Shown here: positions 20,753 through 44,936 of the stretch, piece by piece
How the letters are laid out: each line of letters starts with the position of its first letter
How positions within the stretch are numbered: the stretch's first letter is position 1
Source of the DNA: a virus
Virus record (IMG/VR): IMGVR_UViG_3300043425_000333
Location: 1 to 44,936 of that record
Direction: 5' to 3' (one strand)
Length of the DNA: 44,936 nt
The notes under the pieces: model-generated
The model's input: only the letters and a program-made list of their open reading frames with translations
The model's database searches: none
Told to the model about the DNA's origin: nothing
Translations under genes and position numbers: made by a program

Positions 20753-23700
20753 GTGCCTTCATACACAGTAAAGGGCCCGGATGGCAGGAGCTATACTGTC
20801 AATGCTCCTAAAAAAGCTACCGAGCGCGATGCAATAGCCTATGTTGCGAAGACGTACTACCAAGGCGGCAAGTCAAAACAGGGGGCAAGCCCTATTGAAA
20901 ATATCCCGCTAGTAGGCGGATTGATTGCGCCTGTTGCAGACATACCTTTGAGTGCTGTTGAAGGTCTGAGCGGTACCGTTAAGTCTATCTCAGATGTCTT
21001 TGGTGCTGACAATGCTGTGTCTGATGCAGCTGAGTACGTCTCTCAAGCTGCCGCTGCTTTGAAATCTGCTGGGTCTCGTGAAGATGCAGAGATTGCCCGT
21101 AAAATCCAGAAGGACGCCGAAGGCAAGGGCGTCTGGGAAGAAGTTAAGGCTGCTGCTCGTGCGTTCACTTACGCCCCGTTGGAAAACATTGCTAGCGTAG
21201 CAGGCTCAGCGGTGCCCTTTGTCGGTGCAGCTGTTGCTACTGGCGGTACTGGGGCTGTTCCTCTTGCTACTATGGCTGGGCTTGGCACAGCGTCGGGCGT
21301 AGGTACCATAAAAGGTGCGGTGTACGACGCCGTGTACGACGAGTTCGTAAAGGGCGGTGCGTCTAAACAAGATGCCGAAGCTGCAGCTGAGAAGGCGCAG
21401 GAGTACGGCGGCAAGAACATGGACCAGATTGCACTTGGCGGTGCAATAGGCGCGCTCGCTTCGGCTACTGGTTTCCCACCACAGTTCGCACGTAGTATAG
21501 GCTCGAATGCAGCCAAGAACGTTGCCGCTAGGGTAGCAGCGCGTGAGGCCGTAGAAGTCGGTGCTAAGCGTAGCGTGTTAGGCGGAGCCGCTAAAAGCGC
21601 GGCGATAGAAGCTGCACCAGAAGCTGTACAAGGTGGGCAAGAACAGTTGTCCCAGAACCTAGCGCTGCAGCGTGAAGGTTTCGGTGTAGATACGTGGAAG
21701 GGTGTAGCCGGTCAGGCTGCGTCTGAAGGTATCGCGTCCCTATTCCTAGGTGGCTATGGGGGTGCGCGTGAGGCGCGTGCAGAAAACCGTGAGATGCTCT
21801 CGAAAGAAGTCGCTCAAGAACTCGATGCGATGCCCGAAGAGCCGACTGAAGAAGCTGTATCCGGTGCAGTTGAGCGGTTCACTAAGCGCGGGTTCCCGCT
21901 GGAGAAAGCCCAGCAAGTCGTAGACACCATGGTGAAGCAGAAGGCCGCTATCGAGAAGCAGGCTGCAGAGCTAGAGCAAGCACGTGCCGAGCGGATGGCG
22001 CAAGCCGATGCTGAAGCGACAGCTGAAGAAGGTACAGGACCTAACTTCACTGGGCCACCTCCAGTGGATACCGAAGAAGAAGCCGTCATGCAGCGTATGC
22101 GCGAGGCCGAGGCTACGGGTGTTGAACCACTTGATATTGAGGAAGATATTCAGGCTCCACCTGCTGGGGCTCCGTACCAGCGTGGTGTTAAACAGCCCAC
22201 CATTGTTACTCCCGCACGAGCGGCGACTATACTAAACAACCCGGATACAGCGGGTAACTACAATACAGTAAGTGACTTTGCTGCAACCACAGGCATGGAC
22301 ACAAGGGAAGCTGAGTCCGTCCTAGACGACATCGCCAACGAAGTGCCCGGTGCACCCGCAATCAAGTACTCGCGTAGGGGACGCCCACCAAGTGCGAGCA
22401 CGGTAGAAGCCGCAGGTCAAGAAGGTCTGTTTGGCGCACTGCCCACGCAGGAAGAAAACCGCCTCGACAAGTTTGAGGAAATCCAGCAGCGCAAGCTGGA
22501 GCAGGGTGCGCTCGCACCGGAGCAGCGTGAAGCCGAGCGTCAGGCACAGGCTGACGAGTTTGATAGGCTGCAGCAAGAGCGCGCAGCGAAGGACGAGGAA
22601 TATAAGGCCCAGTTCGTAAAGAACATCGAGGACGCCATTCGTCGTGCTAATCCTGCTAACGAAGCCTATAGTGTGCAGGTCGATGAAACCAGCCCAAAAC
22701 CCTACCGGGTAGTAGGCCCAGACGGCGAGTTGTTTGCAGCTGCAGACACCCTGAAGGACTTCGAAGAGCAGGCTATGGACCTCATGCCATACGTTGCTCC
22801 CGCTGCGGCTATACCAGATACGGACTCCGCAAAGCCCACTGTAGCTACGTCGATGGTGCAAGAGCTTACTGCAGAGATTGATGCTGCACGTGAGCGCGGT
22901 GAGATAGACAACAACCAGCGTACAGAGCTTATCCGCCAGCTAGAGCGTCCCGATGCGTACGACAAGTTCGGTCGCCCGCAGGACAACATCGCCAAGGCTG
23001 AAGAAGAAGCACGGGCAGCAATGTCCAAGTTCCGCAACACCACAGGCGTTGAGGCTAAAGCCGCTGAAGCAGAACTGGCCGTCGCCAACGAGAAGCTGAC
23101 TAAGCTCGTAAACAACCGCATGCTGAACCCGATCCGGTCGCGGCTACGCTCCATGTCAGAGATGCGCAAAGACGAGCAACTTGGTGCCAAGATACGCATT
23201 AAAGATGCGTTGCAGGAGGGCGACCAAAAGGAGCTACGCGATGCCAAAATTGACCTAGCTGAAAGCCGTGTATCAAAGTACCGTAGGGGTGAAACGCAGC
23301 CGGGCCAAGTCAAGACCGACGTATCCAAGGTCCGTGCAGCGGTAGATGCTATCGTATCGGTGTGGAAAGGCCCACCCGTAGTTGAGGTGGTACAGTCAGT
23401 TAGCGACATAGCTGACGCTAAGATACGCCGGGCTGTCATGCAGGACAACGCCACTAACGCAGAAGGCTTCGTGGCTCCTGATGGCGCAGTGTATCTGATT
23501 GCCGACAACCTTGAGTCCGTAGAGCGCGCTAAGGCGGTGCTGTTCCATGAAGCTCTTGGTCACGTTGGCCTTGAGAAGCTGTTCCGTGGCGAGCTAGACG
23601 GCGCTTTGACCGCGCTATACAAAAGCAATGGTAACATACGGACGCAAACCGACGCGTGGCTAGCTGCTAACCCAGAGGCATACGCAAAAGACACTGACCG

Positions 23701-26700
23701 GGTCGCCCGTGCAGTAGAAGAAGTCCTAGCTGAAATGTCCGAGACCGGACAAATCCGGCCAAATATGCTCAAGCGCATTGCAGCTATTATACGTAACTTT
23801 GCACGTAAGCTGGGTATCAACCTAGCAATCAGCGATGCGGATGTAGAGGCTATACTGGCCGCAGGCCACGAGCGTGTCGTAAGCGGTGCACAAGAAAGCA
23901 CGCTGGTTAAGGGCATGCGGTATATCAGTGGGTGGGACACCACCGCACCACGCGCTACAAAATACTCCCGGCCTAAGACCACCAAGAAAGACAAGGAAGC
24001 GCTGGAAGAAACCTCGGCCTCGATGAGCGATGGTCTGCGGCGTGCCAAGAAGTCTACGTCCACTAACGGCATAGCTGACGGCATAGGTAAAGCCGTGGAG
24101 GGGCGTTCGTTCAGCGCCTTCCTTAACGCGTTCAAAGACAACTCCGACGGCATGGGTCCGCCTACGTTAAAGGCTATACTGAAGACTATACCGACGTCCG
24201 GCATCTTAAACTGGTTTGGCCCAGACCTGCCTAGTATCCGTGAGATTGACACGCTGGTGCAGAAGATGTCGGCCATGAAGGCTAACATTATCAAAGCCTC
24301 TGAGGATATAGGCCGTGAGCTGGACGAGTTTCTTCTGGCCGACAAAGACAAAGTGCTGGCTACGACCATGAGCACTGCCCGTATAAACGAATACTCCCCT
24401 GACGAGTTTAAGTCTGCTGATGAGGCGCTTGCTAATCATCCTGCGATGAAGGAGATTGAGGCTCGCGTACTGAAGAACTCGAACGACAAAGCGCTAGCCG
24501 CCCGCATAATAGCCGAGATGAAGGCTCTAACTATGCAGGGTAAGGAAGTAGTGGGGGTAAAGGGCGACAAGGTAAAAAGGTCTGACGACATGCGCAAGCT
24601 GTTAGCGGACCTATCTAAAACTGCTATCGACCGCCAAAAGACGAGTGCCCAGACAGACCAGATTGCAGAACTTACCCGTCGTATCCGTGACGTGCATAAG
24701 CTGTGGGACGAGCTGGCCGAGATTAAGAACGGCCACAAGCTGTATAAAGAGATACGCGCCTACTACAAAGACATGTTCGAAGCAGAGCTGGCGCTACTAG
24801 ACGGTCGCATTTCGACTATTGCTGGTGAGGCAGAAGCTAAGCGCCTGCGCGACCTACGTGCAGACATGATGCGCGAAGTGATGAACCCGGATGAAGCGAA
24901 GAAGAGCGGGGACATATTCCACGACCTCAACTCCGACCTGTTCACCAAGGACTACTTCCCATTCATGCGCGCTGGCCAGTATTATGTACGTGTAGCAGCG
25001 GCAAAAGACGGTACGCGGGAGCGGGAGTTCTACCAGTTCACTACTGCCAAAGAAATGCAGGATGCCCAGAAGGCCATAGCTAAGCGCTTGGGTGTGAACC
25101 CCGAGGACAGCGACGTGATAACCATAGGGTACGATATCGCTCAACTGCAGGAAAACCTGAAGTCTGACGACCAGATGATGCAGAAGATATTCGACCTAGT
25201 TAGCAAGGCTAAGGCTGAGTTTGCTGGTACCAAGGGTATCGACGCTAACAGTTTCAAAGACCTTACGGACAGCATCTACCAGACGTGGTTGCTATCTACG
25301 CCAGAACGGTCGGTGCGCCGCCGGTTCATGCACGCCCAAGAAGTAGTGGGTTTCCAGCAGGACCTGCTGCAGCACTTTGCGTCGCAAGCTAGTAACTATG
25401 CTAACCAGCTAAGCAAGTTGGCCTATGCCGGGGACATTCGCCTCAAGATAGGGGAAGCACGGGACAACGTATCTGACCGCGACGCAACCCTACGGGCGAA
25501 ATACAACTCGGTTATAGATGAGCTTGAGGAACGGGCAGAGGACGAGATAAACCCAAGCCCGCAGTCTGCTATGATAAACCTGCTGAACCGTGCGTCATAC
25601 TTCTACTACCTGACAGCGCCAGCGACAGCCATGCTGCAGCTTACCTCGATACCCATACGCGTTGTGCCCCGCCTGTGGCGTGATTACGGTGTCGCTAAGG
25701 GTACGGCGATTTGGTTTAAGTACATGCGGGTATGGGACACATTAGGTAAAGCTAAGGTGCAGACTACGCGTACCGGCCTAGCCGGTGTGGGCGATGAGCT
25801 TGATGTGCTGATGCCAGATGTGCTGAGTTCAAAGCTGGTTAACGCAGATACTCCACGTGGTAAGCTTCTACGCAAGGCTATGGCGGCGGGTATGGAGCGC
25901 AACGTGCTCGAGACCGTGCAGGACACTCTAATCCAGAACGAGCGGGAAACGGCTAAGAAGCACCGTACGGGTGCAACGCGCACAGCGGTAGAGGCCGCTG
26001 CACTTACTGGTAAAGCCATGGGCGTAATGTTCCAAGGTATGGAAAATATCTCGCGCCAAGTATCGTACTTCATGGCATTTGAGCTGGCGTATGACGCTGA
26101 GAAGGCGAAGAACCCGAGCCCCGAAGCTGAACAGGCAGTATTCGATAAGGCCGTTACAACTGCGCTAGATACAGTGCGTGATACACTAGGTGACTACTCC
26201 AACTGGGAGCGATCTAGCATTATGAAGAAAGACTGGACTCGTGCCTTATTCCTCTTCAAGATGCACCCCATCCTGCAGACCAAGTTCTTAGTGGGGGCGA
26301 TGCGGGATATCGGTCGTGGGTTGTACCCCGGAGCTTCGCCAGAAGCAAAAGCTGCACGTGCTGGCGCTATGAAGGAATTAGGCGGCGTCTTGATGATGGC
26401 GGGCGTATTTGGTGGTATTCTTGGCATGCCGCTATACTCGGTCATGGCATTGGCGTTGGCCGAGAGCTTCGATGAAGAAGATGACGAGGACGTGCGCAAG
26501 CTCATGGGTCTCGACCCGCGTGTCGCTTACGACTCTGACATTATGTTTCGTGCATGGATAATGGACAAGTTCGGAGAGCCGGTGGTCGGTGACGTGTCGA
26601 TGGCTGACATTCTTATACACGGTCCGCTTGGCGCTTTATCGAACACTGAACTGTCTAGCCGTACATCGCTTGACCTCAAGAATATGTGGTTCCGTGAAGC

Positions 26701-27313
26701 GGTTACAGGTGACTCGACCTCAGACACCATAATAAAAACTGCCTTGGCTAACATCGCAGGTGGGCAAATGCTTATTCAGGCGCTCAACGCAAAGGACAAC
26801 TTTGCTGACGGTGACATGTACGGCGCTATGAAGAAGATGGCACCTGCGTTTATCCGTTCGTGGGTAGCCGCAGAGCAGGGTGAAGCCGAAGGCATTGTTA
26901 GCGGTAAGGGCGACACTATTATCGCCAAGGACGACATATCCGCACTGGATACGCTTCGCACTATATCTGGCTTCCGCCCGATGCGTCTTGCCCGGTGGCA
27001 GGACTATTACATTACACGCGGCAAGAATGAAAAGAAGATTGAAGCGGAGAAGACCCAGCTGCTATCTACCTTGGATAGGAAGATACAAGAGGGCGAGATA
27101 AGCTCTATGGAGCAGCTGAAGGAGTTTGTTGCTGACGAGATTGTCCCGTTCAACCGTACATACCCAGACCCTAGCTTCATAATTACTGAAGAGACCATCA
27201 TGCGGTCACTCAAAGGTCGTGCAGAGGTCCGGTCGCGCACTGTACAAGGCATGCGGCTTGAAAAGAAGACTGCAAAGAAGGACATTGGGATGGCAGAAAA
27301 GTTCCGCCCATAA
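20753..27313 (+). CDS. Giant 2186-residue internal virion / polyvalent protein
   Basis: Starts at GTG 20753, with AGGAG about eight bases upstream. It begins MPSYTVKGPDGRSYTVNAP. Residues 142-240 are Gly/Ala-rich and hydrophobic, 385-435 a coiled coil. HEALGHVGLEKLF at 932-944 resembles the zincin-like motif of phage polyvalent proteins, but spacing is HExxxH (His932, Glu933, His937), not HExxH. KYSR occurs at 538 and 1070, near apparent domain borders. Residues 1873-1903 are hydrophobic (LGGVLMMAGVFGGILGM). The end is helical and basic. It is probably injected with the DNA, like other giant podovirus core proteins. Enzymatic activity is not shown. Confidence 0.75.
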   Translation: MPSYTVKGPDGRSYTVNAPKKATERDAIAYVAKTYYQGGKSKQGASPIENIPLVGGLIAPVADIPLSAVEGLSGTVKSISDVFGADNAVSDAAEYVSQAAAALKSAGSREDAEIARKIQKDAEGKGVWEEVKAAARAFTYAPLENIASVAGSAVPFVGAAVATGGTGAVPLATMAGLGTASGVGTIKGAVYDAVYDEFVKGGASKQDAEAAAEKAQEYGGKNMDQIALGGAIGALASATGFPPQFARSIGSNAAKNVAARVAAREAVEVGAKRSVLGGAAKSAAIEAAPEAVQGGQEQLSQNLALQREGFGVDTWKGVAGQAASEGIASLFLGGYGGAREARAENREMLSKEVAQELDAMPEEPTEEAVSGAVERFTKRGFPLEKAQQVVDTMVKQKAAIEKQAAELEQARAERMAQADAEATAEEGTGPNFTGPPPVDTEEEAVMQRMREAEATGVEPLDIEEDIQAPPAGAPYQRGVKQPTIVTPARAATILNNPDTAGNYNTVSDFAATTGMDTREAESVLDDIANEVPGAPAIKYSRRGRPPSASTVEAAGQEGLFGALPTQEENRLDKFEEIQQRKLEQGALAPEQREAERQAQADEFDRLQQERAAKDEEYKAQFVKNIEDAIRRANPANEAYSVQVDETSPKPYRVVGPDGELFAAADTLKDFEEQAMDLMPYVAPAAAIPDTDSAKPTVATSMVQELTAEIDAARERGEIDNNQRTELIRQLERPDAYDKFGRPQDNIAKAEEEARAAMSKFRNTTGVEAKAAEAELAVANEKLTKLVNNRMLNPIRSRLRSMSEMRKDEQLGAKIRIKDALQEGDQKELRDAKIDLAESRVSKYRRGETQPGQVKTDVSKVRAAVDAIVSVWKGPPVVEVVQSVSDIADAKIRRAVMQDNATNAEGFVAPDGAVYLIADNLESVERAKAVLFHEALGHVGLEKLFRGELDGALTALYKSNGNIRTQTDAWLAANPEAYAKDTDRVARAVEEVLAEMSETGQIRPNMLKRIAAIIRNFARKLGINLAISDADVEAILAAGHERVVSGAQESTLVKGMRYISGWDTTAPRATKYSRPKTTKKDKEALEETSASMSDGLRRAKKSTSTNGIADGIGKAVEGRSFSAFLNAFKDNSDGMGPPTLKAILKTIPTSGILNWFGPDLPSIREIDTLVQKMSAMKANIIKASEDIGRELDEFLLADKDKVLATTMSTARINEYSPDEFKSADEALANHPAMKEIEARVLKNSNDKALAARIIAEMKALTMQGKEVVGVKGDKVKRSDDMRKLLADLSKTAIDRQKTSAQTDQIAELTRRIRDVHKLWDELAEIKNGHKLYKEIRAYYKDMFEAELALLDGRISTIAGEAEAKRLRDLRADMMREVMNPDEAKKSGDIFHDLNSDLFTKDYFPFMRAGQYYVRVAAAKDGTREREFYQFTTAKEMQDAQKAIAKRLGVNPEDSDVITIGYDIAQLQENLKSDDQMMQKIFDLVSKAKAEFAGTKGIDANSFKDLTDSIYQTWLLSTPERSVRRRFMHAQEVVGFQQDLLQHFASQASNYANQLSKLAYAGDIRLKIGEARDNVSDRDATLRAKYNSVIDELEERAEDEINPSPQSAMINLLNRASYFYYLTAPATAMLQLTSIPIRVVPRLWRDYGVAKGTAIWFKYMRVWDTLGKAKVQTTRTGLAGVGDELDVLMPDVLSSKLVNADTPRGKLLRKAMAAGMERNVLETVQDTLIQNERETAKKHRTGATRTAVEAAALTGKAMGVMFQGMENISRQVSYFMAFELAYDAEKAKNPSPEAEQAVFDKAVTTALDTVRDTLGDYSNWERSSIMKKDWTRALFLFKMHPILQTKFLVGAMRDIGRGLYPGASPEAKAARAGAMKELGGVLMMAGVFGGILGMPLYSVMALALAESFDEEDDEDVRKLMGLDPRVAYDSDIMFRAWIMDKFGEPVVGDVSMADILIHGPLGALSNTELSSRTSLDLKNMWFREAVTGDSTSDTIIKTALANIAGGQMLIQALNAKDNFADGDMYGAMKKMAPAFIRSWVAAEQGEAEGIVSGKGDTIIAKDDISALDTLRTISGFRPMRLARWQDYYITRGKNEKKIEAEKTQLLSTLDRKIQEGEISSMEQLKEFVADEIVPFNRTYPDPSFIITEETIMRSLKGRAEVRSRTVQGMRLEKKTAKKDIGMAEKFRP

Positions 27314-36700: not shown

Positions 36701-37225
36701 TTACGAAACTAATTTTCTCAACGCACCCACAATACCGTTATTTTTCATATCGGTAGACGTGGGGTATCTGGCTGCAGTGGTGGTGCCGGTGTTGACGTGC
36801 TCATCCAGCCAAATGCTGCTTGCAGACGTACCAACAATCGTGCTGTGGTACGGGCTTGTGTTAACTGGTAAGCTAGCACCACCACCACCACCACCACCAC
36901 CACCGCCACCCTGCTGCATGGTGGTGTTCCGTGCCTTCTGCATAATCAAGTTACGCTCATACTCACGGTCTTCCTCTGCCTTGCGGCGGCGGTCTTCACC
37001 GTTAAGCATTTCGTCCATCACCCGCTCGTGAATTTCATCCAGCCGGATGTCGCGCAGCTTTGCGGCGATTGCAGCCTTGTCAGCCTCGTTCCCGTAGGCG
37101 TGTATCCCGTTTATGGGTTCATACCATCGGTCGTGAAACGGCGCGTGTGCAACCCTAAACTCTTCAGGATGACTCTCCATCCGTGCGAGGAGTAGCTTCA
37201 CTACCTCATGTGGCTCATCCACCAT
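36701..37225 (-). CDS. Helical protein with polyglycine linker
   Basis: A 174-residue protein preceded by GGAGCAA. The N-terminal 95 residues are helical and charged (EADKAAIAAKLRDIRLDEIHERVMDEM; RRRKAEEDREYERN). A run of 11 Gly (encoded by the tract at 36877-36910) then links to a Thr/Ser-rich C terminus with TSPYHSTIVGTSASSIW. The family is not recognised. The start overlaps the end of the DNA polymerase gene by 11 bases. The linker length may vary among relatives because of the repeat. Confidence 0.6.
   Translation of the reverse strand: MVDEPHEVVKLLLARMESHPEEFRVAHAPFHDRWYEPINGIHAYGNEADKAAIAAKLRDIRLDEIHERVMDEMLNGEDRRRKAEEDREYERNLIMQKARNTTMQQGGGGGGGGGGGASLPVNTSPYHSTIVGTSASSIWLDEHVNTGTTTAARYPTSTDMKNNGIVGALRKLVS
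36877..36910 (-). repeat. Trinucleotide (GGT)n polyglycine tract
   Basis: About 11 near-perfect triplets, CAC/ACC-type on the plus strand, encode 11 Gly on the minus strand. One triplet is CGCC. It is the longest simple repeat in the window and keeps the reading frame if it gains or loses units. Confidence 0.8.
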
Positions 37226-39077
37226 AACTTGCTCCTATCTTGCTCTCACAGTTCAACGGTAATGTCGGTGCCCACTTGGGCCGTATACGCATACACGCCT
37301 CAACGAACGCACGGGCTTTGTCAGCTTCTTCTATGGGTGCAATCACCCCCACGGCGTCGTGCACGGTCATCACTACGCGGTAACGACGCGCAACCATCAG
37401 CATCTGCTCACCTATGATGATACGGGCGACTGCCTGACACACATTCTCTATGAGCTTCCCGCCGTATATGCGGGTAGGGATAACTGCCCGGCCCTTCTTA
37501 ACGTCGTAGACGAACTGGTCCCGGCCCGACTTCTTGTCTGGCTCCTTGCGTAAGTTATCGTACCGCAGGTACATACCGTTGGGTAACCTGATACCAAACA
37601 TATCCACTAGCAGTGCTTCGTGCTCACCCAGTTGTGCGGTCCTAGTGGACATAAGCGCCTCTAGCGCCTTATCCCCTTGCTCCCACAGCTTTGGTATCAT
37701 GGGGTAAGCGTTACGGTACACCGTAATAATGTGCTTACACTCCTCGATTGGCATATCGACGTTGAAGGTCTTTAGCTGCATCTGGAACTTAGTCGCACCC
37801 ATGGCATAGCCTGCACCGAGAATAGTGGTCTTACCTACAAACCGCTGGTCGTCTACTATGTCACCTACGGCTACACCGTATATCTCTGACGCCATGATTT
37901 TGTACGGGTCGTACTGCATGTCCGCCTTCTCCACACCCGCTGCGACTTCTGCGTTGTTCTTGTCAAAGAACTCTACAAGGTCATCCTGCCCAGCTAGCCA
38001 CGCCAAGGTCCGCGCTTCAATCTGTGATGAGTCACAGTCGATAAACACATAGCCCTCCGGTGCCAGCATAGACTTCTTGAGCGGTGACTTGCGCGGTAGG
38101 TTCTGCAGGTTGACCTTGTCGTCGCCACCCCATCTGCCTGTATGTGCTGCGTAGTAGCGTAGTGGAACTGGTAGTAGTCCCCGGTCAGCAATAGCTACGA
38201 ACCGCTCGGTCCGCGTCTCCTCAAGTGTAGACTTCACGCCCAGACGCGCAGCGACGATGGCTTGTACTTGTGGATTGGGGTGGTCGAGCAGTGCCTTGAA
38301 CCCCTCGTCACTCTTGGCGAACGCGAATGCTGCCTTACCTGTCTTGGCGCTCACCTTCATGGGCGGGGACACACCATGAAACTCCAACAGTTCCGCTAGC
38401 TTCGGATTGCTCATCAACTCCGACTTGTCGTAGTTAAGCTTAGCCATAAGCTCTTCTTTTTTGGCTTGTACGTTATCCAAATGCGCAGCCAAGATACTCT
38501 TATCCAACACCAGCACCGGCTCGGTGAACATCCGGATGGTCAGGTCAATCAGACGCAGCTCGGACACAGGCATGAGTGGGGCCAAGACAGTAAACAACTT
38601 CTGCGTCAGCTCTACGTCGTTAATACAGTAGTCGCCATACCGGGCTAGGTCTTCGTCAGTGAAGTCCAGTCGCCGCTTACCTAGCGCGTTGATAACCTCG
38701 TCGCCCTTCTCGCCCAGACCGTAACGCTCAACTGCTCTGGCTAGGCTGTTACCAGCATGCGGTCCATCAATAGCACGGAGCATAGACAGGGTGTCAGCGA
38801 TGCGCTTAGGCCGGATGTCGTAACGCCAGTTAAGGATTGCCATGTCGAACATGGCGTTATGGGCCACAGCTATGCTGTTATCCCAGTCCCACTGTTGTAG
38901 CCACCGCTTGGTTTGCGCGTTGGTACCGGTGAACCATACAGTCTCTTCTTCGTTGCGCTTAACGGCAACGCCGATGGTCTCGAACTGCGGGTCACGGATA
39001 TACTCCTCCGTCGTCATTTTGGAGAGCGAGAAGGCGCGGTCGTAGTAGGTCTCGAAGTCGATGTTCAAGATGTCCAT
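37215..39077 (-). CDS. Family A DNA polymerase with 3'-5' exonuclease
   Basis: A 620-residue replicative polymerase. ATG 39077 overlaps the previous stop (TGATG); the TTG one codon before is not needed. The exonuclease domain has ExoI NIDFET (Asp7, Glu9), ExoII AHNAMFDM and ExoIII YGDYCINDVELT. Polymerase motifs are A, FIDCDSSQIEAR (Asp347 or Asp349, Glu354); B, RFVGKTTILGAGYAMG; and C, MTVHDAVG. Motif C has HDA where HDE is usual in Pol I and T7. No 5' nuclease domain is present, as is normal for phage types. It works with the primase-helicase and SSB-like proteins. Confidence 0.92.
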   Translation of the reverse strand: MDILNIDFETYYDRAFSLSKMTTEEYIRDPQFETIGVAVKRNEEETVWFTGTNAQTKRWLQQWDWDNSIAVAHNAMFDMAILNWRYDIRPKRIADTLSMLRAIDGPHAGNSLARAVERYGLGEKGDEVINALGKRRLDFTDEDLARYGDYCINDVELTQKLFTVLAPLMPVSELRLIDLTIRMFTEPVLVLDKSILAAHLDNVQAKKEELMAKLNYDKSELMSNPKLAELLEFHGVSPPMKVSAKTGKAAFAFAKSDEGFKALLDHPNPQVQAIVAARLGVKSTLEETRTERFVAIADRGLLPVPLRYYAAHTGRWGGDDKVNLQNLPRKSPLKKSMLAPEGYVFIDCDSSQIEARTLAWLAGQDDLVEFFDKNNAEVAAGVEKADMQYDPYKIMASEIYGVAVGDIVDDQRFVGKTTILGAGYAMGATKFQMQLKTFNVDMPIEECKHIITVYRNAYPMIPKLWEQGDKALEALMSTRTAQLGEHEALLVDMFGIRLPNGMYLRYDNLRKEPDKKSGRDQFVYDVKKGRAVIPTRIYGGKLIENVCQAVARIIIGEQMLMVARRYRVVMTVHDAVGVIAPIEEADKARAFVEACMRIRPKWAPTLPLNCESKIGASYGG

Positions 39078-39277
39078 CAATATAGCCTTGTGACGTGGAT
39101 GGTGTCGCCCTTGGTGCGGGTCATGTAGTGACGGTCTGTTCGCTCGTTCTGGTTATGCGCAGCCCTGCGGACAAGGTCCTTGTCCCGCTCCGTTGGTGCT
39201 TCAAATATCTTAACCTCGCCCACCTCCATCGCATTGAGGCCGTACTTGGACTTCCGTACGTTAGAACCTGATGTCAT
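39077..39277 (-). CDS. 66-residue protein upstream of polymerase
   Basis: ATG 39277 is chosen because GGAG lies seven bases upstream; ATG 39292 lacks a site. The product is charged: NAMEVGEVKIFEAPTERDKD, then VRRAAHNQNERTDRHYMTR and a final TIHVTRLY. The pattern RRAAHNxNxRxDRxYxTR is one I associate with small DNA-binding proteins of marine phages, where it may be a regulator. Its stop overlaps the polymerase start. Confidence 0.65.
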   Translation of the reverse strand: MTSGSNVRKSKYGLNAMEVGEVKIFEAPTERDKDLVRRAAHNQNERTDRHYMTRTKGDTIHVTRLY

Positions 39278-39338
39278 CTTCACTCCAATCATAAATGTCC
39301 CAGCCGAAGTTGTCGTGTAGGAATTGTCTCAGGGTCAT
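39261..39338 (-). CDS. Possible 25-residue acidic peptide
   Basis: ATG 39338 overlaps the previous TGA (ATGA), and the frame ends with TAA at 39261-39263, inside the start region of the next gene. The peptide (MTLRQFLHDNFGWDIYDWS...) is acidic and aromatic. The double overlap is the same kind seen between all genes in this chain, but its length makes it uncertain. Confidence 0.4.
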   Translation of the reverse strand: MTLRQFLHDNFGWDIYDWSEDDIRF

Positions 39339-39463
39339 TTCATCAACCATATCATGATGGCGTCGTACAGGTCGTACTTGCTGTCGCCAAAGTTCCAGAA
39401 GAGGAGGAAGCAGACACCAAAAAAGTCCATCCCAGTGCGTACTGTTACCGTCTTATCATCCAT
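39335..39463 (-). CDS. 42-residue membrane-type peptide
   Basis: ATG 39463 overlaps the end of the upstream gene by eight bases, and TGA (39335-39337) overlaps the next ATG. The centre is hydrophobic and aromatic (MDFFGVCFLLFWNFG), followed by DLYDAIMIWLMK, so it may sit in the inner membrane. No gene otherwise fills this space. Membrane peptides of this size in early operons can act on host functions, but no activity is known here. Confidence 0.5.
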   Translation of the reverse strand: MDDKTVTVRTGMDFFGVCFLLFWNFGDSKYDLYDAIMIWLMK

Positions 39464-39701
39464 TTGCGTCATCCTCCGGCTCAAACACATAGCCAATCAT
39501 GCTATGCAGTGGGCGCAAGATTGTTTTCTTGGTCGGGTCAATCTTGAACGTGTGCATCGGGTTGCCGTCGGCTGTGCTCACCACGGTGAACGTGACAGTC
39601 TTGGGCTGACGCAGTCGCTCGTTCTCGGCTTCCAGTTCAATAACGTGGACCATGTAGGCTTGAAGTTCATTCACATAATTCAGTGTAGTTTCGTCAGTCA
39701 T
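39456..39701 (-). CDS. Small coiled-coil protein
   Basis: An 81-residue protein with AAAGGAG before ATG 39701. Residues 8-32 form a coiled coil (YVNELQAYMVHVIELEAENERL), followed by a beta part (KTVTFTVVSTADGNPMHTFKI) and a Pro/Gly-rich end. It overlaps the gene upstream by eight bases and the next by eight. No family is recognised. The coil suggests a dimer or binding to a partner. Confidence 0.6.
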   Translation of the reverse strand: MTDETTLNYVNELQAYMVHVIELEAENERLRQPKTVTFTVVSTADGNPMHTFKIDPTKKTILRPLHSMIGYVFEPEDDANG

Positions 39702-40059
39702 CGTTCTTCTCCTTTATCTCAAAGCCAAGCGCGTCCAGTATGGTGCGGAGTTCTTCGGCCACGCTGAAATCCCAACATAACGCATTACACGCATCCACCA
39801 GCGGGTCAGGCTTGGGCGCAGGGATGATGAACTCAATCAGATGTTTGCTGGCATACACTACCGCTTCTGCATGGCCGGTGTTTTTAAGTACAGACAAAGC
39901 GCCTTTCGCCGCATCGCTGAACTTCTTTTTGAATTCTTCCAACTCCAACTCTTTGGTTTTCAATTTGGCCTGAAAATCCTGTGCGCGGCCCTGCCATCTC
40001 ATGGCTTCCAAATACGGGTTATACTCAGTAGGTGGAATTTTTTGTTCAATGTCGGTCAT
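39694..40059 (-). CDS. Coiled-coil early protein, unknown
   Basis: A 121-residue protein starting in a 4-base overlap. It has a charged coiled coil (AKLKTKELELEEFKKKFSD) in the first half and a more ordinary helical end with two cysteines (DACNALCWDFSVAEELR). No recognised domain. It is part of a chain of overlapping small genes between the VRR-NUC nuclease and the polymerase, a place where phages often keep host-takeover proteins. Confidence 0.6.
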   Translation of the reverse strand: MTDIEQKIPPTEYNPYLEAMRWQGRAQDFQAKLKTKELELEEFKKKFSDAAKGALSVLKNTGHAEAVVYASKHLIEFIIPAPKPDPLVDACNALCWDFSVAEELRTILDALGFEIKEKNDD

Positions 40060-40244
40060 TTCAAATGCTCCCCTGCTTCGATGGCGTCGATCAAAACGGA
40101 TTGAGTTTTGCTGGTTGTCAAAGTTTCAATGACGCGGATGGGGCATATCCCTGCTTTATGTCGGCGTAGCCACGCCACAATGTGTTTGCGTTCTTCTATT
40201 GCGCCTTCGAATAACCCTTGGCGGTATGCTTGCAATTCGCTCAT
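40056..40244 (-). CDS. Small helical early protein
   Basis: A 62-residue protein in 4-base overlaps on both sides. Residues 1-35 are helical (ELQAYRQGLFEGAIEERKHIVAWLRRH), followed by a short hydrophobic helix. No cysteine pair or membrane segment of note. No family is recognised. It may bind a host protein, but there is no direct evidence. Confidence 0.55.
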   Translation of the reverse strand: MSELQAYRQGLFEGAIEERKHIVAWLRRHKAGICPIRVIETLTTSKTQSVLIDAIEAGEHLK

Positions 40245-40531
40245 TTGCTTTCCCCCAGTCGGCGCTTCTCAAAGAACTCAAGCAGTGCCGCGAGTAGCTG
40301 GGCCGAACCTTCCCTTGCGTCGGCGTTCCACCTACGCTCGGAGTCGCTGTTCATACCCGAAGGTGCGGTCTTCTCGCTGACGTATATCGCCTTCGCCACC
40401 CGCTCTTTGTGTTCGCTTACCTGCTTGCGTAGGGCGGTGACGCGCCTGACATCCACACCGTGGTAAGATGCAATATACCTATCGTCCGTTATGTACCCAA
40501 TCGTCCGGATAATTTCTGGGTCACTGCTCAT
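40241..40531 (-). CDS. Small early protein with mixed helical pattern
   Basis: A 96-residue charged protein. ATG 40531 lies within the VRR-NUC gene, with GAAGGAGCAG upstream. Residues 1-40 (EIIRTIGYITDDRYIASYHGVDVRRVTALR) resemble an HTH-type segment, and the C terminus is a helix (GSAQLLAALLEFFEKRRL). The HTH idea is weak. It overlaps the next gene by 4 bases. Confidence 0.55.
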   Translation of the reverse strand: MSSDPEIIRTIGYITDDRYIASYHGVDVRRVTALRKQVSEHKERVAKAIYVSEKTAPSGMNSDSERRWNADAREGSAQLLAALLEFFEKRRLGESK

Positions 40532-40832
40532 TCTTCTGCTCCTTCATCTTGCGCACCAGCCCTCGCACCATGTCCCAGTTCTCGTCGTTAGCTACCACGG
40601 CTACGCCATTACACCGACGTATCGCTTCAATCTCACGCACTTGTAGGGCGGTTGGTTTGTTGGTCCCTGCCTTGACTTCGATGGCCAAGAAGTAGCCGTT
40701 CACACAGCATATTATGTCAGGGACGCCGCTACGGCCAAAACCATGGGTGGCGGGGAAGAAGTAGTAAACTCCTTCCTCCTTCAACACCTTGACGATTTTT
40801 TCTTTGACTCTTTTTTCTGGCGTTGACGCCAT
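40521..40832 (-). CDS. VRR-NUC domain nuclease
   Basis: A 103-residue protein with the GGAGCAA site. The VRR-NUC motifs are visible: HGFGRSGVPDIICCVNG (Asp39), FLAIEVKAG (Glu52, Lys54) and Gln64 in TALQVREIEA. It is close to the minimal length of stand-alone phage VRR-NUC enzymes, which cut branched or Holliday-type DNA. It likely resolves replication or recombination intermediates, in step with the SNF2 and Cas4-like proteins. Confidence 0.9.
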   Translation of the reverse strand: MASTPEKRVKEKIVKVLKEEGVYYFFPATHGFGRSGVPDIICCVNGYFLAIEVKAGTNKPTALQVREIEAIRRCNGVAVVANDENWDMVRGLVRKMKEQKNEQ

Positions 40833-40857: not shown

Positions 40858-41739
40858 TTATCCCTCTTCGGGTGGTACGTCAACTGGGTTGTATAAAATA
40901 AAGAAAGTGTCCACGTCGGTGCGTACACCTATGTCGTTAATCAACGTGTCCTTCTCAGTCATCTTGAGTAGACCTAGCGCCATCTTCACTTGGTCAGGCA
41001 TGGACTCCAGACTGCATGCGTATGCTTCTTTACCCACCGGCTGCACGATAAAGTCTCGTGGACGCTCAACCACCACCCAGTGTGGGCTGTTTGCAAGCAC
41101 CTTGGCTGCTTCTGCGTTATCACGTAGCTCGAAGAACTTTTCTTTGGCTTCGTCCACATGGAGGTTGCCCGTCGGGACGGCCATAAACGCGTCCCACTGC
41201 GATGATAGAAACTTTAACGCTGGCGCTGCCAGCCTCTCAATCGCACGGATGTGAAGCTGTCTAGCCCTGTAGCTGGCGCTCTGCGCGGAGCTATGGCTCG
41301 CCTTGTACTTGGCATCTGCTATCTCTGCGACTGTGTGTGGGTAGACGTTCTTGAGTATAACTGCGGTTATGTCTTTGAGGTTCTTGCGGTTTGTCCATAG
41401 CCCACGCTCACGCGCTGCAACAAGGCGGTGGTTCTTAACTGCATACACATGCCCGTTGCCTTTGAACTCCTTGTCTATGCTGGCCAGCTTCTCCCCGTTA
41501 TCGTAGATGTCAAAGGATGAGTGGAGCACTTGAGCAATATCGCCGCTGTGGTTAACAGTGCCGTAACCAGAAGCCTCGAACTCCCAGTTTGGGCGCTTGA
41601 CTTGTAGTGCCTCGATTAGCTGCGCCATGAACGGATGCACCTTGGACCGCTCAGCACGGTCTTTTGAGACTGCATCGTCGTAGCTTGGCCAGTACGTATT
41701 GTGTACGTCTAGCGGGTAGTTAACTTTTTCCTGTGGCAT
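40858..41739 (-). CDS. Unknown protein of the AAA+/VWA cassette
   Basis: A 293-residue protein from ATG 41739 with GAAGGAGCAA upstream. Its N-terminal part is mixed (FEASGYGTVNHSGDIAQVLHSSFDIYDNGEKLASI), the middle is helical (AQLHIRAIERLAAPALKFLSS-like), and the end returns to beta with VVVERPRDFIVQPVG. No known motif is seen. It lies immediately after the DUF3150 gene in the same direction, and nothing separates the two but 14 bases, so it may be a fourth member of that system. Confidence 0.65.
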   Translation of the reverse strand: MPQEKVNYPLDVHNTYWPSYDDAVSKDRAERSKVHPFMAQLIEALQVKRPNWEFEASGYGTVNHSGDIAQVLHSSFDIYDNGEKLASIDKEFKGNGHVYAVKNHRLVAARERGLWTNRKNLKDITAVILKNVYPHTVAEIADAKYKASHSSAQSASYRARQLHIRAIERLAAPALKFLSSQWDAFMAVPTGNLHVDEAKEKFFELRDNAEAAKVLANSPHWVVVERPRDFIVQPVGKEAYACSLESMPDQVKMALGLLKMTEKDTLINDIGVRTDVDTFFILYNPVDVPPEEG

Positions 41740-41753
41740 TGTATTGCTCCTTC

Positions 41754-42605
41754 TTACCAGTCAAATTGTCCAAGCACCGAGTCCACGCTAGCCTTGAGGT
41801 CGCTACGTGCCATCTCGTCCTTGCGTATGTTATCGACGTCTACGCCGCGAATGGCCTTCTCCAGTGCTTGCCTAGCTGACTCTAGCTCCGGGTCTTTAGT
41901 TATGTTCAGGTGCGTTAGTAGCTGACACATCTCTTGGGCGTTGGTTACGAACGTAGACCGGAACTGCTTGGTCTCTTCGCCCTCTGGCTCGGTCAGCTTC
42001 TCGCTCATGGTCAGCAGTGTAGAGTGCAGCTTGTTCCATGTGGTCTTCATCGCGTCACCCACACGGTCTGTGTATGCCGCTTCGTATTGGTTACGTAGAT
42101 GGGCCAGCTCGTCGCTTGCTACGTCGATACGGAAGTCACCCACCTCTGGCACAGGACTGAACACCAGACGGAACGCGAACTTGGACTCCACATCATCCGC
42201 GCTTGGGTAGTCACCTGCATTGAATAGGTCACCAAGGTTATGCCGCGCAGCCTCAACTAGATTGGGATACTCAGCTACGAACTTAGTCACCTTCGAGTTA
42301 AAGTAGCTCGCCCGTGCGTCAGCTTCGCGCTTATACTCTAGAAACATAGACGTAGGCAGTAGCCTCACGCCCTTGTCAGACCAAGGCAGTGTGCGTCCGT
42401 TGTGCCACGTGCGACACAGCGCAGCGTAGTCAGCTATGTCCTTACGCAAGCTAGTGCCCGCCATAAGGTTTTTCCTGAACTTACCAGCGTCAGCCACAGC
42501 GTGTGCGTCTAGCGTTGCTTTGTCGGTTGCCTTGCGGTCGATGATTGCTGCTGTCCATACGGAGATGTTCATCTCCACCAGCATTGATGAACTTGAGATA
42601 CTCAT
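41754..42605 (-). CDS. DUF3150 family protein
   Basis: A 283-residue protein. ATG 42605 has TAAGGAGCAA upstream; the frame to 42680 would overlap the VWA gene. The family pattern is present: EMNISVWTAAIIDRKATDK, then AGKFRKNLM, TWHNGRTLPWSDKGVRLLPT, EYPNLVEAARHNLGDLFNAGDYPS and FRLVFSPVPEVGDFRIDV. The second half is helical. DUF3150 genes are usually found beside MoxR-like and VWA-domain genes in phages, as here. Their function is not known. Confidence 0.85.
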   Translation of the reverse strand: MSISSSSMLVEMNISVWTAAIIDRKATDKATLDAHAVADAGKFRKNLMAGTSLRKDIADYAALCRTWHNGRTLPWSDKGVRLLPTSMFLEYKREADARASYFNSKVTKFVAEYPNLVEAARHNLGDLFNAGDYPSADDVESKFAFRLVFSPVPEVGDFRIDVASDELAHLRNQYEAAYTDRVGDAMKTTWNKLHSTLLTMSEKLTEPEGEETKQFRSTFVTNAQEMCQLLTHLNITKDPELESARQALEKAIRGVDVDNIRKDEMARSDLKASVDSVLGQFDW

Positions 42606-42616
42606 TGGTTTGCTCC

Positions 42617-43813
42617 TTAGTCGATATGTATTGTCTTGCCTGTTGATGCGGTCATCCGCCCACCGCCTGTGATTACCCACAGTATCGGTGCGCCGTTCCA
42701 GTCCGAACCCCAGTTAGGCACGTAGCCATCTGTGAACATGATGATGCAGTCGGCCTTGATGTCCTTCTCCTTGAGGTATGCCTCCATGCAGCTTGGGTCT
42801 GTGCCGCCACCACCGCGTGGTTTGGTAGACGTGCGGAACGAACCGCGTGTCGAGTCGTCATACACCTCGTGCCCAGCCATCGTGTGGTCCCAGTAGATGA
42901 TGTGCAGCTTGTCAGGCGTAACCACCGATAGGATAGCGTCAGTCTCCGACAGGTTCCGTGCGTGGTCCTCGTTGGTGATTGAACCAGACGTGTCGCAGCC
43001 AATGATGATGTTGCCCACACGCTCGCCCGTAAGGCTCGGCATGATGATGTCCGATGATAGAAACCTACGGCTAGGCTTGCGCCATGATGAGTAGTCACGT
43101 CCAGCGCACGTGGCGTTGACGAACTCACGTAGCTGCTCACGCCAGTCTACCTTGGGCTCGAGGATGTCGGTCAACTCACGCGACATACCACCCGCACCTT
43201 TGCCGTGCATCTTCTGTGCAGCAATCATCCCCTGCCGTATGGCTTGGTCTACCTGCTTAACCAGCTCTTCCTTCTCCTCTTTGGTCAGGTCGTTCGCGCC
43301 TTCCCAGTCGTGCTGGTCGATGCCTTCGCCATCACCACCGCCTCCGCCACCGTCGCCTTCTTCCTGCTCCTGCTTGAGCATATCGAAGACCTGCTTGGTG
43401 TTCATGCCTGCGAACCTGCGGTCGATAAGACCTACGGGCTTGCCATCTTTCTGCGGCATAGCCACCACAGTGCGGTTCGGGTCACGGGTGACAATCTCTA
43501 GGTTAATGACGTAGTCACAGGCCATGTTGGCTAGCCGTGGGTCTTCATCCCACAGCTTCTTCCACGTAGTCAGGTGGCGATACATCTTGTGGAATGACTC
43601 GTGCACCACGACGAAAGCTACCTCCTGTATGGATAGCGCGTCGATGAACTCACGCCCATACACCTCATCACGCCCGTTGGTATGCGCAGTTGGCACCGTA
43701 TCGCTCACTTGCTTCGTGCCCATCATAAAGATACCGGACATGTCTGCGAACAACGGGTTGCGCATGAGGTCAATCACGACCTTACTTAGTTTACGCTCGG
43801 CTGTTAGTGCCAT
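42617..43813 (-). CDS. Zincin-like plus VWA domain protein (DUF2201 type)
   Basis: A 398-residue protein with AAAGGAGCAA before ATG 43813. Residues 60-110 hold VVVHESFHKMYRHL, a true HExxH (His71, Glu72, His75), then MACDYVINLEI as in the PF13203 metallopeptidase-like domain. After a Gly-rich linker (GDGGGGGGDGEG), residues 265-390 form a VWA-like domain with a complete MIDAS: CDTSGSI (Asp274, Ser276, Ser278), GGTD (Thr338) and FTDGY (Asp362). Its stop is near the DUF3150 start. It likely partners with the AAA+ protein. Confidence 0.88.
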   Translation of the reverse strand: MALTAERKLSKVVIDLMRNPLFADMSGIFMMGTKQVSDTVPTAHTNGRDEVYGREFIDALSIQEVAFVVVHESFHKMYRHLTTWKKLWDEDPRLANMACDYVINLEIVTRDPNRTVVAMPQKDGKPVGLIDRRFAGMNTKQVFDMLKQEQEEGDGGGGGGDGEGIDQHDWEGANDLTKEEKEELVKQVDQAIRQGMIAAQKMHGKGAGGMSRELTDILEPKVDWREQLREFVNATCAGRDYSSWRKPSRRFLSSDIIMPSLTGERVGNIIIGCDTSGSITNEDHARNLSETDAILSVVTPDKLHIIYWDHTMAGHEVYDDSTRGSFRTSTKPRGGGGTDPSCMEAYLKEKDIKADCIIMFTDGYVPNWGSDWNGAPILWVITGGGRMTASTGKTIHID

Positions 43814-43976
43814 TAGCTTGCTCCTTTAGTTTGTTAGTCGCGTATACGTACGCGGATAGCTCGTCGGGGTGGTCGAAGGCTGAAACGTGCATGACTTTGC
43901 CGTTGGACAGATTGACCTGCCATATCGACACAGGCACCACACGCTTCACATCCACGACGTGAAGCTCCTCGGTCAC
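43791..43976 (-). CDS. Small protein between AAA+ and VWA genes
   Basis: A 61-residue protein from GTG 43976, which overlaps the AAA+ stop (GTGA); its own end overlaps the VWA start by 23 bases. It has a beta-type start (ELHVVDVKRVVPVSIWQVNLSNGKVMHVSA) and a helical end. No family is recognised. The overlaps on both sides imply that it is made along with the two large partners and may be an adaptor. Confidence 0.65.
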   Translation of the reverse strand: MTEELHVVDVKRVVPVSIWQVNLSNGKVMHVSAFDHPDELSAYVYATNKLKEQANGTNSRA

Positions 43977-44936
43977 AGGATATCTACGTTAGCCAATGCC
44001 CAGTCACGGAACTTGGTGGACGTGTAGCCAATCTGCTTCTTGTCTGGGTTCTTGGACAGGTTGATTGCAAACACAGCTTGCCACTCGGACGCCATGCGCT
44101 CGACATACTCCATGAACGGCGTGATTGTGTTGCGCTCAATCTTGGCGATAGCACCGAAGACCATAACCGCGCATGCGCCGGGGCTATCGGGTAGCTTGGC
44201 TTTGGCTGGGTCTTTGATGACCTCGTCCCACGTAGGTAGCTGGTCCTGATACTCAACGAAGGCATGCATGTCCCGCGCAGCGGACTCACCGATTGTGCCT
44301 ACCATGGCCGCGAGTAGCGCGTTGGCCGTGAGCTTATCACGCTGCTTGAGTACGTCGTTAGACGCAAGCTGCAACGACCGGCCTGATACGAAGCTACCCT
44401 GCATCCGCTTGGGGTTGAAGATGTATGGGTTACTCTCTTGGTCACCGTCCATGTAGGACGCCATCGCATGCGGGAACTGGTTAACCCACGCCATAACCAC
44501 AGGGTCGATGTCGTTAGTAACTGCCCATGCCAACCACTCGTCTGCGTCTGGCTTGCGCACCGTAACCGTAGTTACGCGATTGCGTGTATGTGGCTTGACT
44601 GTATCGCCAAGACCTTCGCCTGCCATGTTGCCAGTCATAAGCACGATGGAACCATCGCGCAGCACGTTGTTACCTAGCCGTGGCTTGCGCGACTCCAGTA
44701 GGGGGTGGAGCATATTCTGCACAGGCTGCGGTGCCTTGGTGAACTCGTCTAGCATGATAACCACAGGCTTGCCTGATTGTATCTGGAAGATAGCGTTAGC
44801 GAAATACTCGGTTATCTGCTTGTCACGGTTGATACTCGGCATGGCGATGTCGCCAAGGTCGGCTTGTGCGCAGTCGAAATACGCATAGGCATACGCATCA
44901 CCGAAGTGCCGCTCCAGTGCGCCCATGATAGAAGAC
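43973..44936 (-). CDS. MoxR-like AAA+ ATPase (N-terminal part outside window)
   Basis: The frame is open to the window edge. ATG 44926 is probably internal, because the codons upstream read Ser-Ser-Ile directly before MGALERHFG, as expected just after a GK[S/T] P-loop. Visible motifs, numbered from that Met, are Walker B VIMLDEF (Asp60, Glu61), sensor 1 LMTGN at 96-100, and an Arg-rich HTRNR at 113-117. The rest (VNQFPHAMASY... EYQDQLPTWDEVI) is the MoxR/CobS-type helical lid. It resembles CobS, but no cobalamin genes are present; pairing with a VWA protein is the MoxR pattern. Confidence 0.85.
   Translation of the reverse strand, partial: SSIMGALERHFGDAYAYAYFDCAQADLGDIAMPSINRDKQITEYFANAIFQIQSGKPVVIMLDEFTKAPQPVQNMLHPLLESRKPRLGNNVLRDGSIVLMTGNMAGEGLGDTVKPHTRNRVTTVTVRKPDADEWLAWAVTNDIDPVVMAWVNQFPHAMASYMDGDQESNPYIFNPKRMQGSFVSGRSLQLASNDVLKQRDKLTANALLAAMVGTIGESAARDMHAFVEYQDQLPTWDEVIKDPAKAKLPDSPGACAVMVFGAIAKIERNTITPFMEYVERMASEWQAVFAINLSKNPDKKQIGYTSTKFRDWALANVDIL

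Follow-up and report, generated by a model that had tools for sequence, protein, structure and literature searches.

The AAA+ ATPases Midasin, NorQ and CbbQ each work with a VWA domain or partner. In the NorQD structure, the AAA+ ring carries the VWA partner, which ATP turnover rotates, and a part linked to this partner remodels the client; a 46-residue finger of NorD enters the NorQ pore (PMC13036017). Phages encode related pairs. N4-like phages (Schitoviridae) carry gp24 and gp25 as core genes (PMC4193335; PMC7650795), which are middle transcripts (PMC4193335) and are annotated as AAA ATPase and vWFA protein of unknown function (PMC2784036). For group 2.2 jumbo phages, the part of the account of Iyer et al. 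considered here describes a MoxR-vWA pair with an N-terminal metallopeptidase domain on the vWA protein. It proposes a role in virion assembly, by analogy with the MoxR/VWA proteins of Acidianus two-tailed virus (Iyer et al., 2021, PMC7824862). A homologous pair is encoded in a 44,936-base virus record (IMGVR_UViG_3300043425_000333; the whole stretch is called the window below), where it belongs to a block transcribed in the order AAA+ ATPase, S61 (an open reading frame, ORF, of 61 amino acids, aa), zincin-VWA protein, DUF3150 protein, U293 (293 aa) and Hjc-like nuclease. The pair itself is already described, and the term 'undescribed system', which a sequence-only reading of the window had applied to this cassette, is too strong for it (PMC7824862, PMC4193335). 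What the locus adds are its companions: DUF3150 is a likely third part of the proposed AAA+/zincin-VWA machine, and U293 accompanies it almost throughout one phage lineage.

A DUF3150 profile search of IMG/VR yielded at least 575 contigs, 80 of which were examined. All locus counts below refer to loci with enough sequence; some contigs are near-duplicates, so that loci do not equal independent events. The VWA gene is present in 60/60 loci, the AAA+ gene in 45/46 and the Hjc-like gene in 70/72. The order U299-AAA-(S61)-VWA-DUF3150-U293-HJC-PolA, in which U299 is a further gene upstream of the ATPase, is found in tens of contigs whose proteins are down to about 50% (core proteins) or 20% (U293) identical to those of the window. 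The commonest arrangement is AAA-VWA-D3150-U293-HJC-POL, and a few loci show AAA-D3150-VWA or VWA-AAA-D3150. Gene order is also kept in the most diverged members (L027-L030, L057), and the DNA polymerase gene retains its downstream place in most relatives that reach far enough. Since the order recurs in tens of contigs at such low identities, the arrangement is not due to chance. The block is real and conserved, and its members are very likely functionally linked. U293 follows DUF3150 in 82 of the 83 loci checked and therefore truly belongs to the block here, as far as this lineage is concerned. The link of the 293-aa protein to the cassette, which the sequence-only reading had presented as conjecture, held in this comparison. 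Of the five genes whose co-occurrence and order it had suggested checking, AAA+, VWA, DUF3150 and U293 are found in most loci and S61 in one subclade only.

The full AAA+ protein matches Pfam AAA_5 (3.3e-8). Among solved structures, its family profile matches Midasin (3.6e-32), NorQ (2e-8) and CbbQ (1.3e-6); Clp ATPases match the same profile at about 1e-10 to 1e-7 over a shorter stretch, so that NorQ and CbbQ do not stand above Clp by score. Because of the matches to Midasin, NorQ and CbbQ, the protein is assigned by profile to the MoxR/Midasin/NorQ group, in agreement with the MoxR-like ATPase predicted earlier; which group matches best is clear. The residues of Walker A (K37), Walker B (D100), sensor 1 (N140), arginine finger (R157) and sensor 2 (R223) are all present in 63/63 lineage sequences and in 16/16 diverse members.

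The partner protein consists of DUF2201_N (putative metallopeptidase, E=7.5e-28) and DUF2201 (VWA, E=1.1e-11) according to Pfam. It matches PHROG 1314 at 3.4e-86 and N4 gp25 at 3e-16. H71, E72, H75, N96, A98, D100 and N104 as well as the five residues of the metal ion-dependent adhesion site (MIDAS) occur in 70/70 lineage sequences, H80 in 65/70. HExxH and the five MIDAS positions are also intact in 19/19 diverse proteins, among them N4 gp25 and proteins of a Bacillus jumbo phage, pSYSA and four other plasmids; elsewhere, only VCO139 (H80) and SCTP-2 (N96, A98) depart in this set. The earlier observation that one protein joins HExxH and a complete MIDAS is thereby extended to near-invariance in 70 lineage and 19 diverse sequences. 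As this is hard to explain otherwise, both sites are probably in use. The protein is a predicted peptidase, and the strictly kept zincin site suggests that it cleaves its client. The label 'HNH endonuclease' of PHROG 1314 was rejected for this family because its Pfam domains are metallopeptidase and VWA; the name is repeated across many phage records.

NorQ/NorD, CbbQ/CbbO, RavA/ViaA and Midasin share with the window the AAA+ class and a MIDAS-bearing VWA partner or domain. In contrast, this zincin domain was not reported for NorD, CbbO, ViaA or Midasin in the literature searched, and their clients differ or are unknown. BchID and CobST, in which a MoxR-VWA-type architecture inserts metal, speak for a chelatase-like machine that would insert metal into a phage or host metalloenzyme, one of the roles considered in the sequence-only reading. 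In addition, the phage AAA+ is close to NorQ, and NorQD inserts metal with this architecture (PMC13036017). However, the invariant pattern of HExxH and NxAxDxxxN suggests a site of the peptidase type more than a subunit of a chelatase, and no conserved metalloenzyme gene adjoins the cassette in the annotated neighbourhoods examined. Positive evidence for a chelatase was not obtained, and we regard this role as highly improbable.

The DUF3150 protein of the window does not match PF11348 directly. It is homologous over about 280 aa to proteins annotated as DUF3150 from cyanophage MinM2 and from plasmids. Two of these proteins match PF11348, one at E=1e-8 and the other at E=1e-4, which falls short of the Pfam cut-off; tblastn against the MinM2 DUF3150 protein gave 2e-25. 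The earlier family name has the backing of this clear homology but not of a direct match to the Pfam model. The gene begins at the ATG given in Table 1 and not at GTG 42680. The protein is predicted to be mostly helical. An AlphaFold2 (AF2) model (pLDDT 57) was too poor for a fold search and was discarded.

DUF3150 accompanies the AAA+/VWA pair in separate backgrounds, namely the phage lineage of the window, MinM2 and plasmids. In plasmids of Burkholderia, Cupriavidus, Simplicispira and Rhodovastum it adjoins a VWA-like gene, with an ATPase gene directly upstream in three of the four, and ten accessions common to the DUF3150 and VWA plasmid match lists carry both genes side by side. The MinM2 order is MoxR, a 90-aa ORF, DUF3150, three small ORFs and VWA. 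The triads of MinM2 and the Burkholderiales and Rhodovastum plasmids resemble the window in that the same three families lie close together on one strand and zincin and MIDAS of the VWA protein are intact. They differ in their order (AAA-DUF3150-VWA instead of AAA-VWA-DUF3150), lack a detectable U293 and do not form one clade with the window proteins. In the AAA+ and VWA trees, the triad carriers are not one clade. With modest deep support, these trees suggest that DUF3150 joined or was lost more than once, and they are not read further. No relative of the phage DUF3150 was detected in a scan of cellular genome contigs, which reaches only close relatives of this lineage. A Manganitrophus plasmid (L044:4872-7894) carries an AAA+ gene followed by DUF1257, DUF2997 and DUF3150, with no VWA gene annotated alongside.

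U293 showed no consistent match in Pfam, PHROG, NCBIfam or PADLOC, either alone or with 53 relatives, and a sequence-profile search of the PDB gave weak matches confined to the helical region. Its AF2 model is fair (pLDDT 82.6, pTM 0.60); it starts with an alpha/beta part, continues with long helices and ends in a beta part. This model has no fold match in the PDB (nothing below E=0.03), and every significant match in BFVD is an uncharacterized protein from an uncultured phage. No U293 was detected in the loci of MinM2 and the plasmids. Two candidate counterparts, a 300-aa gene after VWA in MinM2 and a 257-aa gene in Rhizobium phage RHph_TM3_14A, were dismissed, as no homology was found. U299 lies directly upstream of the AAA+ gene in 29 of 34 loci and contains the motif PIRGxxxGxKPxGRR.

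Both proteins evolve 2-5x faster than the core genes. According to Nei-Gojobori estimates, ratios of nonsynonymous to synonymous substitution rates (dN/dS) are 0-0.12 for AAA+, 0.03-0.19 for VWA, 0.03-0.12 for DUF3150 and 0.03-0.16 for Hjc, compared to 0.17-0.37 for U293 and 0.27-0.41 for U299. Between the window group and its sister subclade, dS of U293 reaches 1.7-2.0, whereas AAA+, VWA, DUF3150 and Hjc show 0.33-0.75 in the same pairs. Because U293 exceeds its neighbours so far in dS, the simplest reading is that its allele was exchanged by recombination. The rate pattern is compatible with a role in specificity or host contact, short of proof.

Such a pattern would also fit a machine for counter-defence or host takeover that unfolds or cleaves a host protein, be it of defence, of the nucleoid or of transcription; its specificity would then be set by U293 and U299, which change quickly. 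Besides their faster evolution and the sign of allele exchange in U293, two observations point this way: The triad occurs on plasmids, several of them conjugative, which likewise need to survive host defences, and the gene that follows in EcP1 carries the annotation Lar-like restriction alleviation. However, AAA+, VWA and DUF3150 are slow-evolving and near-universal in the lineage, resembling a core function and not a patchy counter-defence gene, and dN/dS of U293 stays below 1 throughout. PADLOC models, which cover defence rather than counter-defence proteins, gave weak AAA+ domain matches only (best 1.9e-5, PDC-M37B) and none for the other cassette proteins. The MoxR-vWA ternary conflict systems of multicellular bacteria (PMC7159879, PMC12839542) resemble the locus in combining MoxR, a sometimes peptidase-fused VWA protein and a variable third component. 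In contrast to the window, this component is VMAP, FtsH or iSTAND and not DUF3150, and the systems are cellular. On balance, counter-defence is a serious candidate that we still consider unlikely.

The genomic setting of the pair is informative beyond this lineage. Using tblastn, VWA relatives were found in 638 phage records, which are largely N4-like and also include jumbo phages, Seunavirus 4MG, cyanophage S-TIM5 and others. This bears out the earlier statement on the recurrence of the pair in phages, where no role is assigned to it; N4-like core genes and jumbo phages are examples. N4 gp24/gp25 are homologous to the AAA+ and zincin-VWA proteins of the window, have the same catalytic and MIDAS residues and the AAA+ gene upstream of VWA, and lie in several members beside helicase and DNA polymerase, comparable to the replication setting of the window. 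In EcP1, VCO139, K479 and Ab09, helicase and then DNA polymerase follow soon after VWA. The pair is located shortly before PolA in RHph_TM3_14A and near PolI in SCTP-2. Among the isolates found to carry the pair, RHph_TM3_14A is the closest to the window, and its pair shares a block with the DNA polymerase gene. Unlike the window, N4-like phages have no U293 or U299, use another polymerase and probably represent another phage group. A term search in the main text of the CRISPRi-ART study gave a single mention of N4, as a propagated phage.

We propose, with a probability of roughly 40%, that the cassette encodes an ATP-driven, probably proteolytic, remodelling machine for DNA replication or host takeover with DUF3150 and U293 as partners. 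The AAA+ protein would assemble into a ring of the MoxR type, and the zincin-VWA protein would be the partner subunit driven by it. Docking on the ring would be through the VWA domain, and either the MIDAS or the zincin-containing N-terminal part would hold the client. ATP turnover would remodel the client, and the zincin site would probably cut it. DUF3150 might be a third, helical subunit or adaptor. U293, which is specific to the lineage and changes fast, might be a partner or determine client specificity. The machine would be made together with the replication genes and act in DNA synthesis or host takeover, rather than as part of the virion. Its target could be a phage replication or recombination protein or a DNA-bound host protein. 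DNA synthesis or host takeover is indicated by the replication setting in several polymerase backgrounds and by middle expression in N4.

Several observations weigh against this proposal. The phage VWA domain spans about 125 residues from MIDAS to the C-terminus, and no insertion the size of the 46-residue finger, with which NorD enters the pore, is present in the alignment. For this reason the zincin-VWA protein is not classed as NorD-like, and with no room for such a finger, its docking mode must differ from that of NorQD. By analogy with the NorD C-terminus, the conserved C-terminus of the zincin-VWA protein (G392, near the protein end) is a possible ring contact. Furthermore, the pair of S-TIM5 has Hsp20 on one side and, on the other, a gene with the annotation virion structural/packaging. 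Phages G and 4MG have the pair elsewhere, with the two genes apart. phiFa is also counted as an exception. These deviating contexts limit our confidence. In addition, neither DUF3150 nor U293 was found near the pair in N4-like loci and RHph_TM3_14A: Profiles did not detect DUF3150 in the loci of Ab2712, K479, phage G, phiFa and RHph_TM3_14A, and none is annotated beside the pair in the other N4-like loci examined. Consequently, the pair can work without DUF3150 and U293, and the adjacency of U293 could be explained by operon linkage alone.

If linkage were the whole explanation, the pair would act on its own and DUF3150 and U293 would merely share its transcript, which would also fit the failure to find U293 in MinM2 and on plasmids. 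However, DUF3150 accompanies the pair in several backgrounds, plasmids included, and the set stays together while its order shifts between AAA-D3150-VWA and VWA-AAA-D3150. Independent action of linked genes is therefore distinctly improbable to us.

The proposal of a chaperone for virion assembly and processing, made for the jumbo-phage pair and backed by the archaeal virus precedent in the part of PMC7824862 considered here, gains from the S-TIM5 neighbourhood. That pair resembles the window in its MoxR AAA+ protein and the VWA protein fused to an N-terminal metallopeptidase domain. By contrast, this part of the account mentions no DUF3150 or U293 partner, and contigs of the window's lineage (about 60-69 kilobases, kb) differ in size from jumbo phages. 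The cassette genes lie in the replication region and not among late genes, both in the window and in most N4-like phages examined, and N4 gp24/25 are not late but middle transcripts (PMC4193335). The DUF3150 triad sits on plasmids, which form no virions, so that virion assembly, also considered in the sequence-only reading, is unlikely as a general role. As an account of this cassette we find it improbable.

A bolder version of the preferred remodelling machine would be that AAA+, DUF3150 and zincin-VWA constitute a distinct ternary ATP-driven metallopeptidase of phages and plasmids. It would help to establish incoming DNA, either through removal of a host protein that hinders replication or through inactivation of a defence, and one large lineage of uncultivated phages would use U293 as a specificity subunit that can be exchanged. 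We consider this speculative and quite unlikely as a whole.

The positions of the features are summarized in Table 1. All five ORFs noted at first sight are present as tightly packed minus-strand genes, with overlaps or short gaps: 11 nucleotides (nt) between VWA and DUF3150, 14 nt between DUF3150 and U293, and 25 nt between U293 and Hjc. The AAA+ gene is truncated directly after the Walker A lysine. A 15-kb contig (L001), whose cassette proteins are all 100% identical to those of the window, supplies the complete 357-aa ATPase (L001:2988-4061), from which Walker A was read as GEPGIGKS. It adds one gene directly upstream, U299 (L001:1959-2858).

Table 1. Features of the cassette and its context in the window.
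Feature	Position	Strand	Remarks
MoxR/Midasin-class AAA+ ATPase	43973..44936	-	5' end cut by window; residues 38-357 of 357 in window
S61, 61-aa ORF	43791..43976	-	GTG start; overlaps AAA+ stop by 4 nt (GTGA) and VWA start by 23 nt
Zincin-VWA protein, 398 aa	42617..43813	-	family of N4 gp25; phrog_1314
Zincin motif HESFH, residues 71-75	43589..43603	-
NxAxDxxxN, residues 96-104, after HESFH	43502-43528	-
MIDAS DTSGS, residues 274-278	42980..42994	-	T338 at 42800-42802; D362 at 42728-42730
DUF3150 protein, 283 aa	41754..42605	-	ATG 42605 start
U293, 293-aa protein	40858..41739	-	phage-lineage orphan family
Hjc/VRR-NUC-like nuclease	40521..40832	-	context, next gene of block; Pfam Hjc 5.9e-6
Family A DNA polymerase	37215..39080	-	context, replication arm; Pfam DNA_pol_A 6.9e-25

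S61 was found in about 10 loci, all from the window's own subclade. It is probably translated, as dN/dS outside the overlap is about 0.35 in the two most distant pairs. In L006 and L028, AAA+ and VWA are less than 30 nt apart, and in L029 and L030 they overlap; with no room between the two genes, S61 is truly absent there. No Pfam or NCBIfam family was found for it. An equation with DUF2997, which lies between AAA+ and DUF3150 on the Manganitrophus plasmid, is not claimed because profiles link S61 to nothing outside the subclade. S61 may be a coupling or regulatory ORF, and its membership in the general machine, as assumed in the five-gene cassette, is unsupported.

The window comprises a plus-strand arm with tail, structural and ejection-type genes and a minus-strand replication arm from about 27.6 kb to the window end, which encodes a primase-like 944-aa protein, a helicase, an exonuclease, PolA and the Hjc-like nuclease. 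The cassette occupies the upstream part of the replication arm, as far as the window extends. N4-like phages are marked by a giant virion RNA polymerase and an N4-type DNA polymerase. The polymerase of the window belongs to the same PolA type as those of RHph_TM3_14A and KPP25, and the large proteins scanned included no virion RNA polymerase, but the window is a partial genome. In KPP25, no cassette was present within the 26 kb examined. Between the Hjc-like gene and PolA (39077-40531), small ORFs vary among close relatives, which makes this a variable spot in the replication arm. A 2186-aa protein (20753-27313) matches the DarB-like antirestriction PHROG 10089 over a long but incomplete stretch (E=1.9e-34).

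Three aspects are new. DUF3150, for which no mention was found in the literature searched, emerges as a likely and recurrent third part that is shared with plasmids. U293, likewise not found described there, evolves fast and is nearly always present in a very large lineage of uncultivated phages. A further fast-evolving gene, U299, lies just upstream of the ATPase. Although the N4-like phages have been studied intensively, no function was found in the literature for their core genes gp24 and gp25. The question of what they do is now narrowed by a peptidase-like site and a MIDAS that are kept almost without exception, by the frequent company of replication genes and by a DUF3150-containing form on plasmids.

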